NCBI GenBank assembly: GCA_017441765.1
Contig: JAFRVK010000040.1
Span: forward strand, 1-36,523
Length of the DNA: 36,523 bases
Direction of reading: 5' to 3'
Origin: Erysipelotrichaceae bacterium
GTDB lineage: Bacteria > Bacillota_I > Bacilli_A > Erysipelotrichales > Erysipelotrichaceae
Shown here: one piece after another, positions 22,590 through 32,824 of the stretch
Numbering within the stretch: position 1 is the first letter of the stretch
Layout: each line of letters starts with the position of its first letter
Made by a program: the position numbers and the translations under genes
Notes under the pieces: model-generated
Database searches by the model: none
What the model was told of the DNA's origin: nothing
The model's input: only the letters and a program-made list of their open reading frames with translations

Positions 22590-23535
22590 AGAACTGAACA
22601 AACGTGTCTATGTGCGGCAGCTGAAGGAATACTTCAATCTGGAACAGCTATCCGGAGATGACAGTTCCCTGGATCGCTGGATCATCGCGCCGGATGTCAA
22701 CCGTCCCGGCTTGGAACTGTCCGGCTATCTGGAATCCAACGACCTGAAACGTGTCGTTGTCTTAGGAACAAAAGAGTATGAATACATGACCAAACTGGAT
22801 CAGGAGACCCAGCGTCTGCGTTTTGAGATCATTACCGACTCCTATACGCCATGCATCATCATTTCGGATGGTTTCGAACCTCTGGATTCTCTGATCTGGC
22901 TGGCCAACGACAAGAACTTCCCGGTCTTCCGGTATGAAGGAAAGACCTATCAGCTGATGGTCGATCTGGTTTCCTATCTGTCCGAACAGCTGGCTGTAAC
23001 CGATACGATCCACGGGGTCATGATGAATATCTACGGAAGAGGTGTGATGATCACAGGAAAATCAGGCATAGGTAAATCCGAACTGGCGCTGGATCTGATC
23101 AACAGGGGACACATGCTGGTTGCAGACGACTGTATCGAAGTGACCAGAGTCCATACCAGCATCATCTGCCAGGCACCGAAGATGCTGAAGCGGATGCTGG
23201 AGATCCGAGGCCTTGGCATTGTGGATGTGACCCGGATGTTTGGCGCAAACGCCTTCCTGAACCGCTGTAACCTTGATTTTGTGATCAATCTTGTCAAACA
23301 GGATGAAACAGTCGAACAGGATCGTCTCAATCCGATCAACCGGACCAAGGATGTCTTGGGACTGGAAAAGCCGATGCTGGTCATTCCGATCACTGAAGGC
23401 AAATCCCTGTCTGTCATCATCGAAGCGGCTGTTTCCAATTATCTTCTGAAAAAACTCGGCTATGATTCGAATGAAGAATTCAAGCAGGAATATCGCGAAT
23501 CGCTTATCCGTAAAGGAGAACAGAACGATGATTAG
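22579..23535 (+). CDS. hprK: HPr kinase/phosphorylase
   Basis: A 318-residue bifunctional enzyme that phosphorylates HPr on Ser46 and, in reverse, uses phosphate to release it as pyrophosphate. It is the central sensor of carbon catabolite repression in Firmicutes. Walker A G160-KSGIGKS167 follows a conserved IHGVMMNIYGRGVMI stretch (His145), and the HprK signature EIRGLGIVDVTRMFG comes after VADDCIEV. The ATG at 22579 has AGGTGA 6 bases upstream and lies inside the end of uvrA. Its stop overlaps lgt, whose fused HAD domain resembles PpaX, the pyrophosphatase that removes the product of HprK. Confidence 0.97.
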   Translation: MANEELNKRVYVRQLKEYFNLEQLSGDDSSLDRWIIAPDVNRPGLELSGYLESNDLKRVVVLGTKEYEYMTKLDQETQRLRFEIITDSYTPCIIISDGFEPLDSLIWLANDKNFPVFRYEGKTYQLMVDLVSYLSEQLAVTDTIHGVMMNIYGRGVMITGKSGIGKSELALDLINRGHMLVADDCIEVTRVHTSIICQAPKMLKRMLEIRGLGIVDVTRMFGANAFLNRCNLDFVINLVKQDETVEQDRLNPINRTKDVLGLEKPMLVIPITEGKSLSVIIEAAVSNYLLKKLGYDSNEEFKQEYRESLIRKGEQNDD

Positions 23536-24991
23536 CTTCTTCCCTGATGCCCAGACATTTATTGCTCTGCGTATCGGTTCATTGGCTCTGGATGTGCGCT
23601 GGTACGCCGTACTGATCCTGATCGGTGCTGCGATCGCCTATGTCGTATCGAAACGTTCTGCCAAAGAATGCAGATATATCGATATGCCTTATTTCGATGA
23701 TCTGTTCATCTATACGTTATGGGTCGGCATCATGGGTGCGAGGCTGTGGTTCTGTGTATTCTATAACTTTTCCTATTATATGGCTCATCCGTTTGAAATT
23801 ATCCGTATCTGGGACGGAGGGTTGGCAATCCAGGGAGGACTGGTATTCGGCGCTTTGTTCGCATACTGGTTTATCCGCAGGAAGCATTATCCTTTCATGA
23901 AATTCATGGATATTCTCTTGCCGAATGTCCTGATCGGTCAGGCGGTAGGCCGCTGGGGAAATTTTGTCAATCAGGAATGTCATGGAGGAGAAGTTGCAGA
24001 AAGCTATTTCAACGGTATCCTTTCTTTTCTGAAAGAAGGTATGTATATCAACGGGCATTACTATGAACCTTTATTCTTCTATGAATCGATCCTGTGTTTT
24101 GTCGGCTGGATCCTGATCAGTTTCATTCTGCGCAAGCATCAGAACAAGCGCGGTGATCTGGCATATGCCTATCTGATGTGGTATGGGACAGGACGTTTCT
24201 TTATCGAAGCAAGAAGAACGGATTCTCTCTATATCGGCAATCTCAAGATGGCCCAAGTGACTTCTCTGATTTTCATTGTCGTAGGCATACTGGGATATCT
24301 CGGTGTTCTTGACAGATGGTTCAAGAAAGAAAAACCGGTCGTTATCTTTGATTTTGACGGGACGCTGATGGATACCCGCGAAAGCATCTACGAAGCATAC
24401 AAAGCCTTGTTCGAGAAATATTCCGATTTATCCAAATTCACTCCGGAAGTGAAACAGGAAGTGATCGGTCCTGCGCTGAAGGATCTGTTCCCGAAGTATT
24501 TTCCGGGAATCGATTATGATACTTTGTATGCGGACTATCGGAAACGTCAGCTTGAAGTCCGAGAGGCAGTGACGCACATGATGCCTCATGCGGAAGAAGT
24601 GCTGAAATACCTTCATGTGAATGGCTATAAAGTGGGAATCATTTCGACCAGAACCAATGAAGGGATACGGGAACTGCTTAAGATGTTTGATGCGGAACAG
24701 TATATCGATGATATCTGCGGTCTGCGCGATGTGGAGAATCTGAAACCGGATCCGGAAGGGATCTTCAAACTCATAAACAATAATTCCTGGAATAAGGATT
24801 GTGTCATGGTGGGCGATTCTGTTATGGACATCAGATGCGGACTGAATTATGGGGCATATACGGTGGCATATCTTTCTGATCCGGAACGGAGCCAGGAACT
24901 GTCTCAGATCGCGAATGAAGCGATCACGGATCTCGAAGAATTGTTGACGATCCTGAAGAAAGATATCAGTTTTACCTACGATCAGCGATAA
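23528..24991 (+). CDS. lgt: Fusion of Lgt (prolipoprotein diacylglyceryl transferase) and a PpaX-like HAD phosphatase
   Basis: A 487-residue two-domain protein. Residues 1-262 are Lgt, the membrane enzyme that puts diacylglycerol on the lipobox cysteine of prolipoproteins: multiple helices, WDGGLAIQGG (the E. coli His103 position is Gln102 here) and the signature GRWGNFVNQE at 141-150. Residues 270-475 are a HAD hydrolase with motif I F-D275-F-D277-GT, motif II Ser373, motif III Lys406 and motif IV GD430SVMD434; VIGPAL resembles the PpaX phosphatase group. In Bacillus subtilis hprK, lgt and ppaX are adjacent separate genes. GGAG precedes the ATG at 23528; the longer frame to 23462 lies inside hprK. 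Confidence 0.95.
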   Translation: MISFFPDAQTFIALRIGSLALDVRWYAVLILIGAAIAYVVSKRSAKECRYIDMPYFDDLFIYTLWVGIMGARLWFCVFYNFSYYMAHPFEIIRIWDGGLAIQGGLVFGALFAYWFIRRKHYPFMKFMDILLPNVLIGQAVGRWGNFVNQECHGGEVAESYFNGILSFLKEGMYINGHYYEPLFFYESILCFVGWILISFILRKHQNKRGDLAYAYLMWYGTGRFFIEARRTDSLYIGNLKMAQVTSLIFIVVGILGYLGVLDRWFKKEKPVVIFDFDGTLMDTRESIYEAYKALFEKYSDLSKFTPEVKQEVIGPALKDLFPKYFPGIDYDTLYADYRKRQLEVREAVTHMMPHAEEVLKYLHVNGYKVGIISTRTNEGIRELLKMFDAEQYIDDICGLRDVENLKPDPEGIFKLINNNSWNKDCVMVGDSVMDIRCGLNYGAYTVAYLSDPERSQELSQIANEAITDLEELLTILKKDISFTYDQR

Positions 24992-30753: not shown

Positions 30754-30812
30754 CTGTCATCGTTAAAGTTTCGCTGTCATCATAAATATTCCTATTGTAT
30801 AATAGACTCATG
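30754..30812 (+). promoter_or_regulatory. murT promoter, leaderless type, with direct repeats
   Basis: TATAAT (30798-30803) is six bases before the murT ATG at 30810, and no ribosome site exists. CTGTCA (30774-30779) may serve as -35 at 18 bases. CTGTCATC occurs twice, at 30754-30761 and 30774-30781, 20 bases apart. Confidence 0.55.
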
Positions 30813-32141
30813 AGAAAATTGTTTGCCATAGTACTATGTAAGATAGCCAAAAAGGTCGGAGGATTGTTTCATCGCGGATCGTCTTTGCCCGGCAAGATCG
30901 CTTTGAAAGTCTGCCCGGATATTCTGAATCGTATCCGTTTGCCGGAGAATATCATTGCTGTGACCGGTTCGAATGGCAAGACTTCGACCGTGGAGATGAT
31001 CTACAATGTCCTGACCGATGCCGGATATCGTGTCGCCAGCAACCGTGAGGGTTCCAACCAGATCGAAGGCGTGACGACGCTGATTCTTGATAACTGCAGT
31101 CTCGGTGGAAGATTCCGTGCGGATATCCTGCTTCTGGAAGTCGATGAACGGTATGCGAAGCATGTTTTCCGTTATATCGTTCCGAAATATTACGTCATCA
31201 ACAATCTGTTCCGTGACCAGCTGACCAGGAACGGTTCTCCGGAATTTGTTCTGGAAGAGATCAAGCGTTCGATCAAAGACGGCTCTATCCTGATCCTGAA
31301 TGCGGATGATCCGCTGGTATCTTCTTTAGGCCGCCTTTATGAGAACAAAGCCTATTATTTCGGCGTCAATGAAAACCAATATGTCGAAGAAGAAGCAACA
31401 GGCCCCTATGATGATGGCCATTACTGTCCGTTGTGCAAGTCCAAAATGATCTATGAATACCGTCAGTTTGCGCATATCGGCAAATACAAATGCCTGGGCT
31501 GCGGTTTTGAGCGTCCGGAACCTGATTTCTATATCAGCGATATCGATCTGCAGAGCGGCCGTATGACGATCAACGGCGAATATCATCTGAATCTGGCCTA
31601 TCATACGATCTTCAATGCATACAATATCCTGGCTGCTTTCAGCATCGGCAGATTGCTGGATGTCCATGTGGATTCACTGATTGATACCTTGAATGAATTC
31701 CTGATTCATAACGGACGTATCAAACGTTTCAAGATCGGTTCGAAAACAGGAACATTGCTGATCTCCAAACATGAAAATTCCGTTTCCTACAACCGCAATC
31801 TGGCTTATATCGCAAATTATGACAAGGATGTCACATTGTTGCTGATCGTCGAAGACATCTCCCGGAAATACTTTACTTCCGACACTTCCTGGCTGTGGGA
31901 TATCGATTTTGAAATGCTGAATTCCGACAACATCAAGATGGTCATCGTAGCAGGACAGTATCTCAATGATCTTGCGGTGCGGCTGGAGAATGCAGGACTG
32001 GATATGCGCAAGGTCATATTAAGAAGAAACGTCGACAGCGCGATCGCTTATCTGCGCTATGAAGGAATCGGCGAATCCTTTGCCATGACCTGTTTCTCTG
32101 ATGAAGCGAAACTGCTGAAAGAAGTGGAGAGTTACGAATGA
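30810..32141 (+). CDS. murT: Lipid II isoglutaminyl synthase, MurT subunit
   Basis: A 443-residue Mur-ligase-like enzyme that amidates the alpha-carboxyl of D-glutamate in lipid II with its GatD partner. The ATP loop is TGSNGKTST; four cysteines (CPLCKSKM...CLGCGFE) form the zinc ribbon typical of MurT; and SDTSWLWDIDFE is the C-terminal catalytic region. A TTG at 30795 would extend the frame, but it overlaps the -10 box, so the ATG at 30810 is preferred. The gatD start overlaps its stop by 4 bases. It heads an operon of envelope-related genes. Confidence 0.93.
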   Translation: MRKLFAIVLCKIAKKVGGLFHRGSSLPGKIALKVCPDILNRIRLPENIIAVTGSNGKTSTVEMIYNVLTDAGYRVASNREGSNQIEGVTTLILDNCSLGGRFRADILLLEVDERYAKHVFRYIVPKYYVINNLFRDQLTRNGSPEFVLEEIKRSIKDGSILILNADDPLVSSLGRLYENKAYYFGVNENQYVEEEATGPYDDGHYCPLCKSKMIYEYRQFAHIGKYKCLGCGFERPEPDFYISDIDLQSGRMTINGEYHLNLAYHTIFNAYNILAAFSIGRLLDVHVDSLIDTLNEFLIHNGRIKRFKIGSKTGTLLISKHENSVSYNRNLAYIANYDKDVTLLLIVEDISRKYFTSDTSWLWDIDFEMLNSDNIKMVIVAGQYLNDLAVRLENAGLDMRKVILRRNVDSAIAYLRYEGIGESFAMTCFSDEAKLLKEVESYE

Positions 32142-32824
32142 AGATCTTACATTTATTCCCTGATCTGATGAATCTTTACGGTGATTATGGCAATATCGCG
32201 ATTTTAGTCAGGCATCTGAAAGATCTTGGTGTTCCGGTCACGGTCGATAAAAGGGATGTCGATGACCTGATCGATTTTCCGTCCTATGATCTTGTATATA
32301 TGGGACCCGGTACGGAAAAGAATCAGCTGGTTGCTTTGAAAGAATTAAAGAACTATGAGTATCAGTTCAATGAATATATCAATGACAATAAACTGCTGCT
32401 TCTGACGGGCAATGCCATGGAACTCTTGGGAGAAAGGATCGATGATGAGCCTGCTATGAATCTGGTGGATTTCTATACGGAAATCACCGATAAGCGCTAT
32501 ACCGGCGATGTGGTAGTACACAACGATACTTTAGGCGAAGTCGTCGGTTTCATCAACAAGTCTTCCCTGATCCATGGGGGAGAGAAAGAAAAACTCTTTA
32601 CCTATGCCTTCAAGGACAGCAATCTTATCGACAACAGCTACGAAGGCTATCATTTTAAGAACGTCTATGGAACACATATCATCGGACCTATCCTGGTCAA
32701 GAATCCTTCTTTCCTGAATCTGATCGTCCGTTCCCTGGCGCGCAGCCAGTATCGCAGCATCGAATATCCCTATGAGACTGCGGCATATGAAGTCACTCTG
32801 AAAGCTCTTCAGAACAGGAAATGA
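32138..32824 (+). CDS. gatD: GatD-like glutamine amidotransferase lacking the expected catalytic residues
   Basis: A 228-residue protein with the CobB/CobQ-like class I amidotransferase fold of GatD, which normally takes ammonia from glutamine for MurT. MGPGTEKNQ near residue 55 and YGTHIIGPILVKNP near 177 are recognisable. The nucleophile elbow, CGGYQ-like in known GatD (Cys94 in Staphylococcus aureus), reads T90-G91-N92-A93-M94 here, with no cysteine nearby. The usual HGP histidine (His189) is Ile182, although a histidine stands two residues earlier at 180. The gene overlaps murT by ATGA-type junction, so it is still paired with MurT. Confidence 0.85.
   Translation: MKILHLFPDLMNLYGDYGNIAILVRHLKDLGVPVTVDKRDVDDLIDFPSYDLVYMGPGTEKNQLVALKELKNYEYQFNEYINDNKLLLLTGNAMELLGERIDDEPAMNLVDFYTEITDKRYTGDVVVHNDTLGEVVGFINKSSLIHGGEKEKLFTYAFKDSNLIDNSYEGYHFKNVYGTHIIGPILVKNPSFLNLIVRSLARSQYRSIEYPYETAAYEVTLKALQNRK

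Follow-up and report, generated by a model that had tools for sequence, protein, structure and literature searches.

A widespread MurT/GatD variant that has lost its glutaminase residues and probably no longer attaches ammonia taken from glutamine

The window analyzed here is a stretch of 36,523 nucleotides from an Erysipelotrichaceae bacterium (assembly GCA_017441765.1, contig JAFRVK010000040.1, positions 1 to 36,523), and it encodes a MurT/GatD pair whose features are collected in Table 1. In their usual form the two proteins draw ammonia from glutamine and attach it to a precursor of the cell wall. The GatD reading frame matches Pfam GATase_3 (E 6e-11), the NCBIfam GatD models (E about 1e-29), and the PDB GatDs of Staphylococcus aureus, Streptococcus pneumoniae and Streptococcus pyogenes (E 2e-22 to 3e-27). 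MurT is matched by Pfam MurT_C (1.4e-20) and Mur_ligase_M, and by PDB MurT (E 6e-56). The scores nonetheless fall far below the NCBIfam equivalog cut-offs of the canonical pair, GatD reaching 104 bits where the curated threshold is 400. As an initial annotation of this DNA had proposed, gatD is coupled to murT, the start of the former overlapping the end of the latter by 4 nt (ATGA). Elsewhere in the window, a single open reading frame at 23462-24991 resembles, by eye, a fusion of prolipoprotein diacylglyceryl transferase (Lgt) with a HAD phosphatase.

Table 1. Features of the murT-gatD locus, in window coordinates. Types are described in the text.
Feature	Position	Strand	Basis or conservation
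murT, type A, 443 aa: Mur ligase central domain, Cys4 zinc ribbon, MurT_C	30810..32141	+	
MurT loop RDQLTRNGS (135-143), GatD interface/channel; canonical RDQ[LM]DRxGE	31212..31238	+	
MurT zinc ribbon Cys206/209/228/231	31425..31502	+	97-100% conserved in type A
MurT KHENSVSYN (320-328) for canonical KNP[AT]GxN; two-residue insertion before Asn	31767..31793	+	
MurT DISRKYFTSDTSW (349-361), in place of the DNAAD amino-acid/stem-peptide motif	31854..31892	+	
gatD without catalytic Cys/His	32138..32824	+	228 aa ORF, homology, model, Cys count
TGNAME codons (residues 90-95), site of the CGGYQ nucleophile elbow	32405..32422	+	alignment
Gly91 codon, equivalent to S. aureus Cys94	32408-32410	+	alignment
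Arg120 codon, equivalent to S. aureus Arg128, retained	32495..32497	+	conservation count
THIIGP codons (residues 179-184)	32672..32689	+	alignment
Ile182 codon, equivalent to S. aureus His189	32681-32683	+	alignment, conservation count

The initial annotation had read TGNAME in place of the nucleophile elbow and an isoleucine in place of the HGP histidine, and had concluded that this GatD is not a normal glutaminase. Alignment to the PDB structures bears out both readings: Cys94 of S. aureus GatD aligns with Gly91 (LLLT-G-NAMELLG), and His189 aligns with Ile182 (GTHI-I-GPIL). The whole protein contains zero cysteines, so no alternative alignment could supply the catalytic one. An AlphaFold model built from 65 relatives (mean pLDDT 96.7) matches the three GatD structures with Z scores of 26-28 over 213-225 residues, HisH being the next family at Z 18.9. 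The residue that captures glutamine in S. aureus GatD, Arg128 (PMC6085368), aligns with a retained arginine, Arg120. The reading frame is thus confirmed as a GatD homologue without equivalents of Cys94 and His189, and alignment, cysteine content, model and conservation together support the view that it does not work as a normal glutaminase.

This form is not peculiar to one genome. In a survey of 101 relatives, nearly all genomes belonging to the genus had the cysteine-less GatD, and a MurT-alignment scan of 84,980 named species returned 498 relatives, among which the best 80 all have a GatD without the cysteine and histidine adjoining MurT (80/80). The hosts of these best 80 are Erysipelotrichaceae (including records named Solobacterium) and Oscillospirales (Ruminococcus, Flavonifractor, Oscillibacter and Massiliimalia timonensis), so the earlier suggestion that related gut Firmicutes share the form was correct. 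In the window's own genome, which is 77% complete, a PF07685 search found a single GatD; a second GATase_3 match, on contig C29, is by eye a DJ-1/PfpI-like protein and was rejected as a GatD. A second GatD that might pair with MurT was therefore sought without success, and PF08353 identifies one MurT in this genome and in each of ten genomes of named relatives. Four near relatives that are 94-99% complete (G001, G007, G014 and G016) likewise hold one MurT, of the window's form, and most genomes with that form carry a single MurT/GatD pair. Against the two nearest relatives gatD has dN/dS values of 0.04 and 0.08, similar to murT, and is under strong purifying selection. Together with the loss shared by all 80 of the best MurT relatives, these values place the absence of the cysteine and histidine beyond chance. 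Decay or mis-assembly of gatD, for which the missing catalytic residues alone would speak, is ruled out by this conservation, the gene being intact in hundreds of species, and we give that explanation essentially no weight. Frame irregularities do occur in individual gatD genes elsewhere: in two rabbit-gut MAGs the gene is split across two frames at the same place (L107:2707-3439, L141:4632-5364), by frameshift mutation, recoding or a shared assembly error, and in L032/L062 (G029:C5:828-1510) the first 23 codons are out of frame with the remainder.

Pairs with a cysteine-less GatD and a remodelled MurT fall into three types. Type A comprises the window's form plus hundreds of Oscillospirales. 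MurT is present in 103 of 196 Clostridia genomes, and of those with loci read (all but about thirty of the 103), 22 have remodelled types (11 A, 7 B, 4 C) and four more have type D, in which the GatD cysteine and histidine are lost and MurT is canonical. With other Mur ligases as outgroup (among them three sequences first labelled B that were judged by motif to be other Mur ligases from the same loci), the MurTs of types A, B and C form one clade (SH-aLRT 99) nested within canonical MurT. The clade adjoins a canonical Erysipelotrichaceae branch (97 in a second tree), and type D falls elsewhere, inside canonical MurT. The phylogeny of the TGN form thus yields one clade, which indicates that glutaminase loss and MurT rebuilding happened once, long ago, while the position of type D indicates that glutaminase loss alone arose separately. 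Because the remodelled clade arose once, an independent-contrast comparison of MurT remodelling with cysteine loss had just 4-5 independent pairs and was powerless. No cysteine-less GatD was described in the literature we searched, with subscription journals outside its coverage, and the A/B/C pair is a widespread MurT/GatD variant undescribed in that literature.

The remodelled types do not always stand alone. In two genomes of the type C family described below, a type C pair coexists with a canonical one (L300/L304; L302/L303), and several Erysipelotrichaceae carry one A pair and one or two B pairs per genome. Examples of the latter are G375 (L241-L243), whose two B pairs are about 13 kb apart, G349 (L244-L246) and G397 (L236, L237). 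Type D consists of L197-L200 (G209, G268, G163, G251), with GatD reading ATASGYPLLG and LTGPLLP and MurT reading KNPAGFN. Type D pairs are likely natural NH3-dependent isoglutaminyl synthases, and they are a better candidate for plain ammonia use than types A, B and C. Three canonical-like MurTs, L260 (G043), L272 (G150) and L321 (G264), have no GatD detected adjoining them, and L260 and L321 read SWIND at the usual site of the GatD-contacting Trp/Tyr; to judge from these loci, the three MurTs are possibly GatD-independent. L311 (G214), L270 (G120), L271 and L322 show isolated single changes in otherwise canonical pairs, either Cys to Gly/Ser with the histidine kept or His to Asp with the cysteine kept.

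The initial annotation did not notice that MurT has been rebuilt, nor that the form belongs to a large, old clade. The MurT model finds its best structural matches in MurT structures (Z 31-37), and residues were counted over 319 MurTs, a set with some duplicates between collections, with 102 canonical MurTs for comparison. The P-loop lysine, the acceptor asparagine, Glu110, Asp112, Glu113 and Asp136 occur in every A/B/C MurT, and the hinge arginine, Lys320, Asn323 and the zinc cysteines in nearly all. Conservation across Asn83, Glu110, Asp112/Glu113, Asp136, Arg303, Lys320, the P-loop lysine and the zinc ribbon is ~94-100%, and the window MurT itself holds K57, N83, E110, D112, E113 and R303. 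The clade has lost its glutaminase residues and retained its ligase residues, and since the catalytic and acceptor residues of MurT are kept, MurT is expected to remain a ligase with a carboxyl of that kind as its target. Type A also conserves the GatD-MurT interface (MurT W363, D364 and R135; GatD Y14, G15 and N19) and keeps Asp202 and Asp364 of the acidic MurT gate.

What has changed in MurT lies in three places. The KNPxG and DNAAD motifs are both absent from the window MurT. The two-residue insertion before the KNP-loop asparagine is found in all A/B/C MurTs and in 0/102 canonical ones. The last aspartate of DNAAD, present in 100% of canonical MurTs, is Lys/Arg in 100% of type A, where it is preceded by Arg (97%) and by an invariant Ser; the type A replacement reads D[AD]ISRKY, and in the window DISRKYFT, with the counterpart of S. 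aureus Asp349 retained as Asp358. In the 135-143 loop, Asp139 is 100% conserved in canonical MurT and replaced in A/B/C, where 95-100% of sequences carry Asn two residues on, at position 141. DNAAD has been likened to the MurE L-Lys site DNPAND and sits between the GatD site and ATP (PMC3266927, PMC6113224), and the 135-143 loop flanks the ammonia path in S. pneumoniae (PMC6085368). GatD changes in step: its cysteine position is Gly throughout types A and C and in 90% of type B, its His189 position is Ile/Thr/Leu in A/B/C, and the glutamine-capturing arginine persists in 99% of A and 93% of B and is lost in C. The cysteine is missing from every GatD that adjoins a remodelled MurT and present in 92/98 of those that adjoin a canonical MurT. 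The amino-acid pocket and channel loop of MurT have thus been remodelled together with GatD, in a clade of single origin.

Compared with the lipid II isoglutaminyl synthase MurT/GatD of S. aureus, S. pneumoniae and S. pyogenes, the window pair shares both folds, at the Z scores given above, the gene order with overlap, the zinc ribbon, and the ATP, Mg, acceptor and interface residues, but differs in the missing GatD cysteine and histidine and in the changed KNP, DNAAD and 135-143 regions of MurT. The closest laboratory counterpart is the S. aureus GatD C94G mutant, an identical Cys-to-Gly change that is natural in the window GatD; the C94G complex differs in that its MurT is canonical, and it works with NH3 only, at pH 8.5. 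The next-best structural matches of the MurT model (Z about 21-28) are MurC/D/E/F and the pseudomurein ligase pMurC, which likewise activate a carboxyl with ATP for subsequent attack by an amino acid, but which have a UDP-binding N-terminal domain and neither a GatD partner nor a zinc ribbon.

In group B walls the cross-link starts at the alpha-carboxyl of D-Glu, which is the carboxyl activated by MurT; Schleifer and Kandler reportedly named this carboxyl as the cross-link origin. A ligase forming the type B peptidoglycan branch would share that target with the A/B/C pair. Type C pairs occur in at least 30 of 40 genomes of one family, taken to include Eubacterium limosum. Type C is the form in the genome taken as that species and probably also in Acetobacterium woodii, and the cysteine is absent from all type C GatDs read in the family. 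The recorded peptidoglycan type of Eubacterium is B2-alpha (PMC11382707). No gene for the branch-forming ligase was found in the literature searched, subscription journals again lying outside its coverage, which leaves no family of such ligases for the pair to be assigned to, and no donor clue, such as a racemase or bridge enzyme, was seen among the gene neighbors in E. limosum, A. woodii and two multi-pair loci. Erysipelothrix is another genus with type B peptidoglycan. In genus g77 (including G405, G418 and G526), presumably Erysipelothrix-like since 8 genomes match an Erysipelothrix 16S primer with one mismatch, an A/B/C MurT is absent from 11/13 genomes and the other two have a type B pair. 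A type B wall can therefore be built otherwise, and in those 11 genomes the D-Glu branch would need another enzyme. A strict equation of cysteine-less GatD with a type B wall is rejected, because most Erysipelothrix-like genomes are without the pair and type A Oscillospirales carry DAP epimerase. That enzyme is present in most type A Oscillospirales genomes and absent from most type A Erysipelotrichaceae, so type A is not bound to a single diamino acid, and the peptidoglycan-type listing checked records no branched stem for type A Oscillospirales. Within Erysipelotrichaceae, FemAB bridge enzymes were found in 49/55 canonical and 16/36 cysteine-less genomes (Fisher p 9e-6, uncorrected for kinship or completeness), a deficit that fits a changed bridge and is no proof of one.

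The initial annotation had offered a relocated active site, a structural partner for MurT using free ammonia, or a different donor. A relocated glutaminase site would rely on His180, the residue named in that annotation, or on a Thr/Ser for catalysis, and could appeal to the conservation of His180 in 83% of type A and of Thr90 in about 86-98% of A/B/C. Among relatives, however, His180 gives way to Tyr, Ser, Gln or Glu and hardly occurs in B and C, some type A members carry Ala for Thr90, and the middle oxyanion-hole glycine is lost; with every candidate nucleophile varying among relatives, we reject the proposal as very improbable. Amidation might instead have been kept, with its ammonia supplied by a further glutaminase or another enzyme whose gene lies away from the pair. 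Glutaminases that work uncoupled are found in other systems, and type A retains part of MurT's negative gate, yet the loci read hold no conserved glutaminase gene beside the pair and offered no candidate, and we place little faith in this route. Somewhat less improbable, though still not something we expect, is a shift of the pair to another acceptor or pathway, in which a lipid- or nucleotide-linked carboxyl other than the D-Glu of lipid II would be used. The strong divergence of types B and C and the several paralogues per genome would suit such a shift, while the invariance of the acceptor-carboxylate Asn83 and of the Mg ligands, glmM among the neighbors in type C loci (by eye), and the single pair of most type A genomes speak against it.

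The use of free ammonia deserves more weight, even if we consider it unlikely as an account of types A, B and C. MurT would then make D-iso-glutamine from cytosolic ammonia, with GatD as a scaffold holding MurT in its active shape. The gut and rumen are ammonia-rich, the type A interface is conserved, and type D, with its canonical MurT, probably works that way. In S. aureus, MurT with GatD-C94G carries out NH3-dependent amidation of lipid II unimpaired at pH 8.5, and GatD is required by MurT in either case, but the mutant complex does not use NH3 at pH 7.5 (PMC3266927). Ammonia use also leaves unexplained the clade-wide rebuilding of DNAAD, KNP and 135-143 with its Asp-to-Lys change, the coexistence with canonical pairs, and the several paralogues per genome. 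The proposal of a structural partner therefore has a precedent in C94G and comes second to ligation of an amino acid.

That reading, which we favor at close to an even chance, is that the A/B/C pair is an amino-acid ligase for the D-Glu alpha-carboxyl. The acceptor would still be the D-Glu of lipid II, the donor would be an amino acid, and GatD would be a pseudo-glutaminase kept as an obligatory structural, and possibly amino-acid-sensing, subunit; in the type C members of Eubacteriaceae, this ligation would initiate the type B cross-link. Of the three options in the initial annotation, a different donor fits best, MurT having been rebuilt together with GatD. Counting for it are a GatD that has lost both catalytic residues and contains no cysteine, a MurT that keeps its ligase residues, the single clade formed by A, B and C, the fact that the rebuilt MurT parts (DNAAD, the KNP loop and 135-143) matter for the nucleophile, and type D, which shows that cysteine loss alone needs no rebuilding of MurT. 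The occurrence of type C in a family with a B2-alpha genus, the FemAB deficit in cysteine-less Erysipelotrichaceae, and the coexistence of canonical with C pairs and of A with B pairs, as expected of different donors, point the same way. S. aureus MurT has replaced MurE in an in vitro synthesis of the pentapeptide (PMC3266927), which puts amino-acid ligation within reach of the fold. Against it stand the 11/13 Erysipelothrix-like genomes without the pair, the DAP epimerase and lack of a recorded branched stem in type A Oscillospirales, the glutamine-capturing Arg120 retained in A and B, and the acidic gate kept in type A. What tips us from ammonia toward amino-acid ligation is that MurT has been rebuilt on its nucleophile side, together with the link through type C, the presence of paralogues and the occurrence alongside canonical pairs. 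A more specific version, possible although we lean against it as a whole, has the cysteine-less clade consist of branch ligases that add specific amino acids to the D-Glu alpha-carboxyl, with type C forming the Eubacterium/Acetobacterium type B branch, types A and B forming unrecorded branched stems, and a non-catalytic GatD that may select the amino acid. The A and B stems would then span hundreds of gut Oscillospirales and Erysipelotrichaceae.

Overall, what this pair attaches in its cell-wall step is probably not ammonia taken from glutamine and may be an amino acid. Databases label the A/B/C genes 'isoglutaminyl synthase', which implies a glutamine-dependent amidation that is impossible for this clade. 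If the donor is free ammonia, the clade would show, in nature and on a large scale, how a glutamine amidotransferase abandoned its glutaminase. Should an amino acid be the donor, the clade offers a candidate enzyme for the step that forms the type B branch, many abundant gut bacteria would have stem peptides that differ from what has been assumed, and the change would fall at a position read by host receptors such as NOD2.
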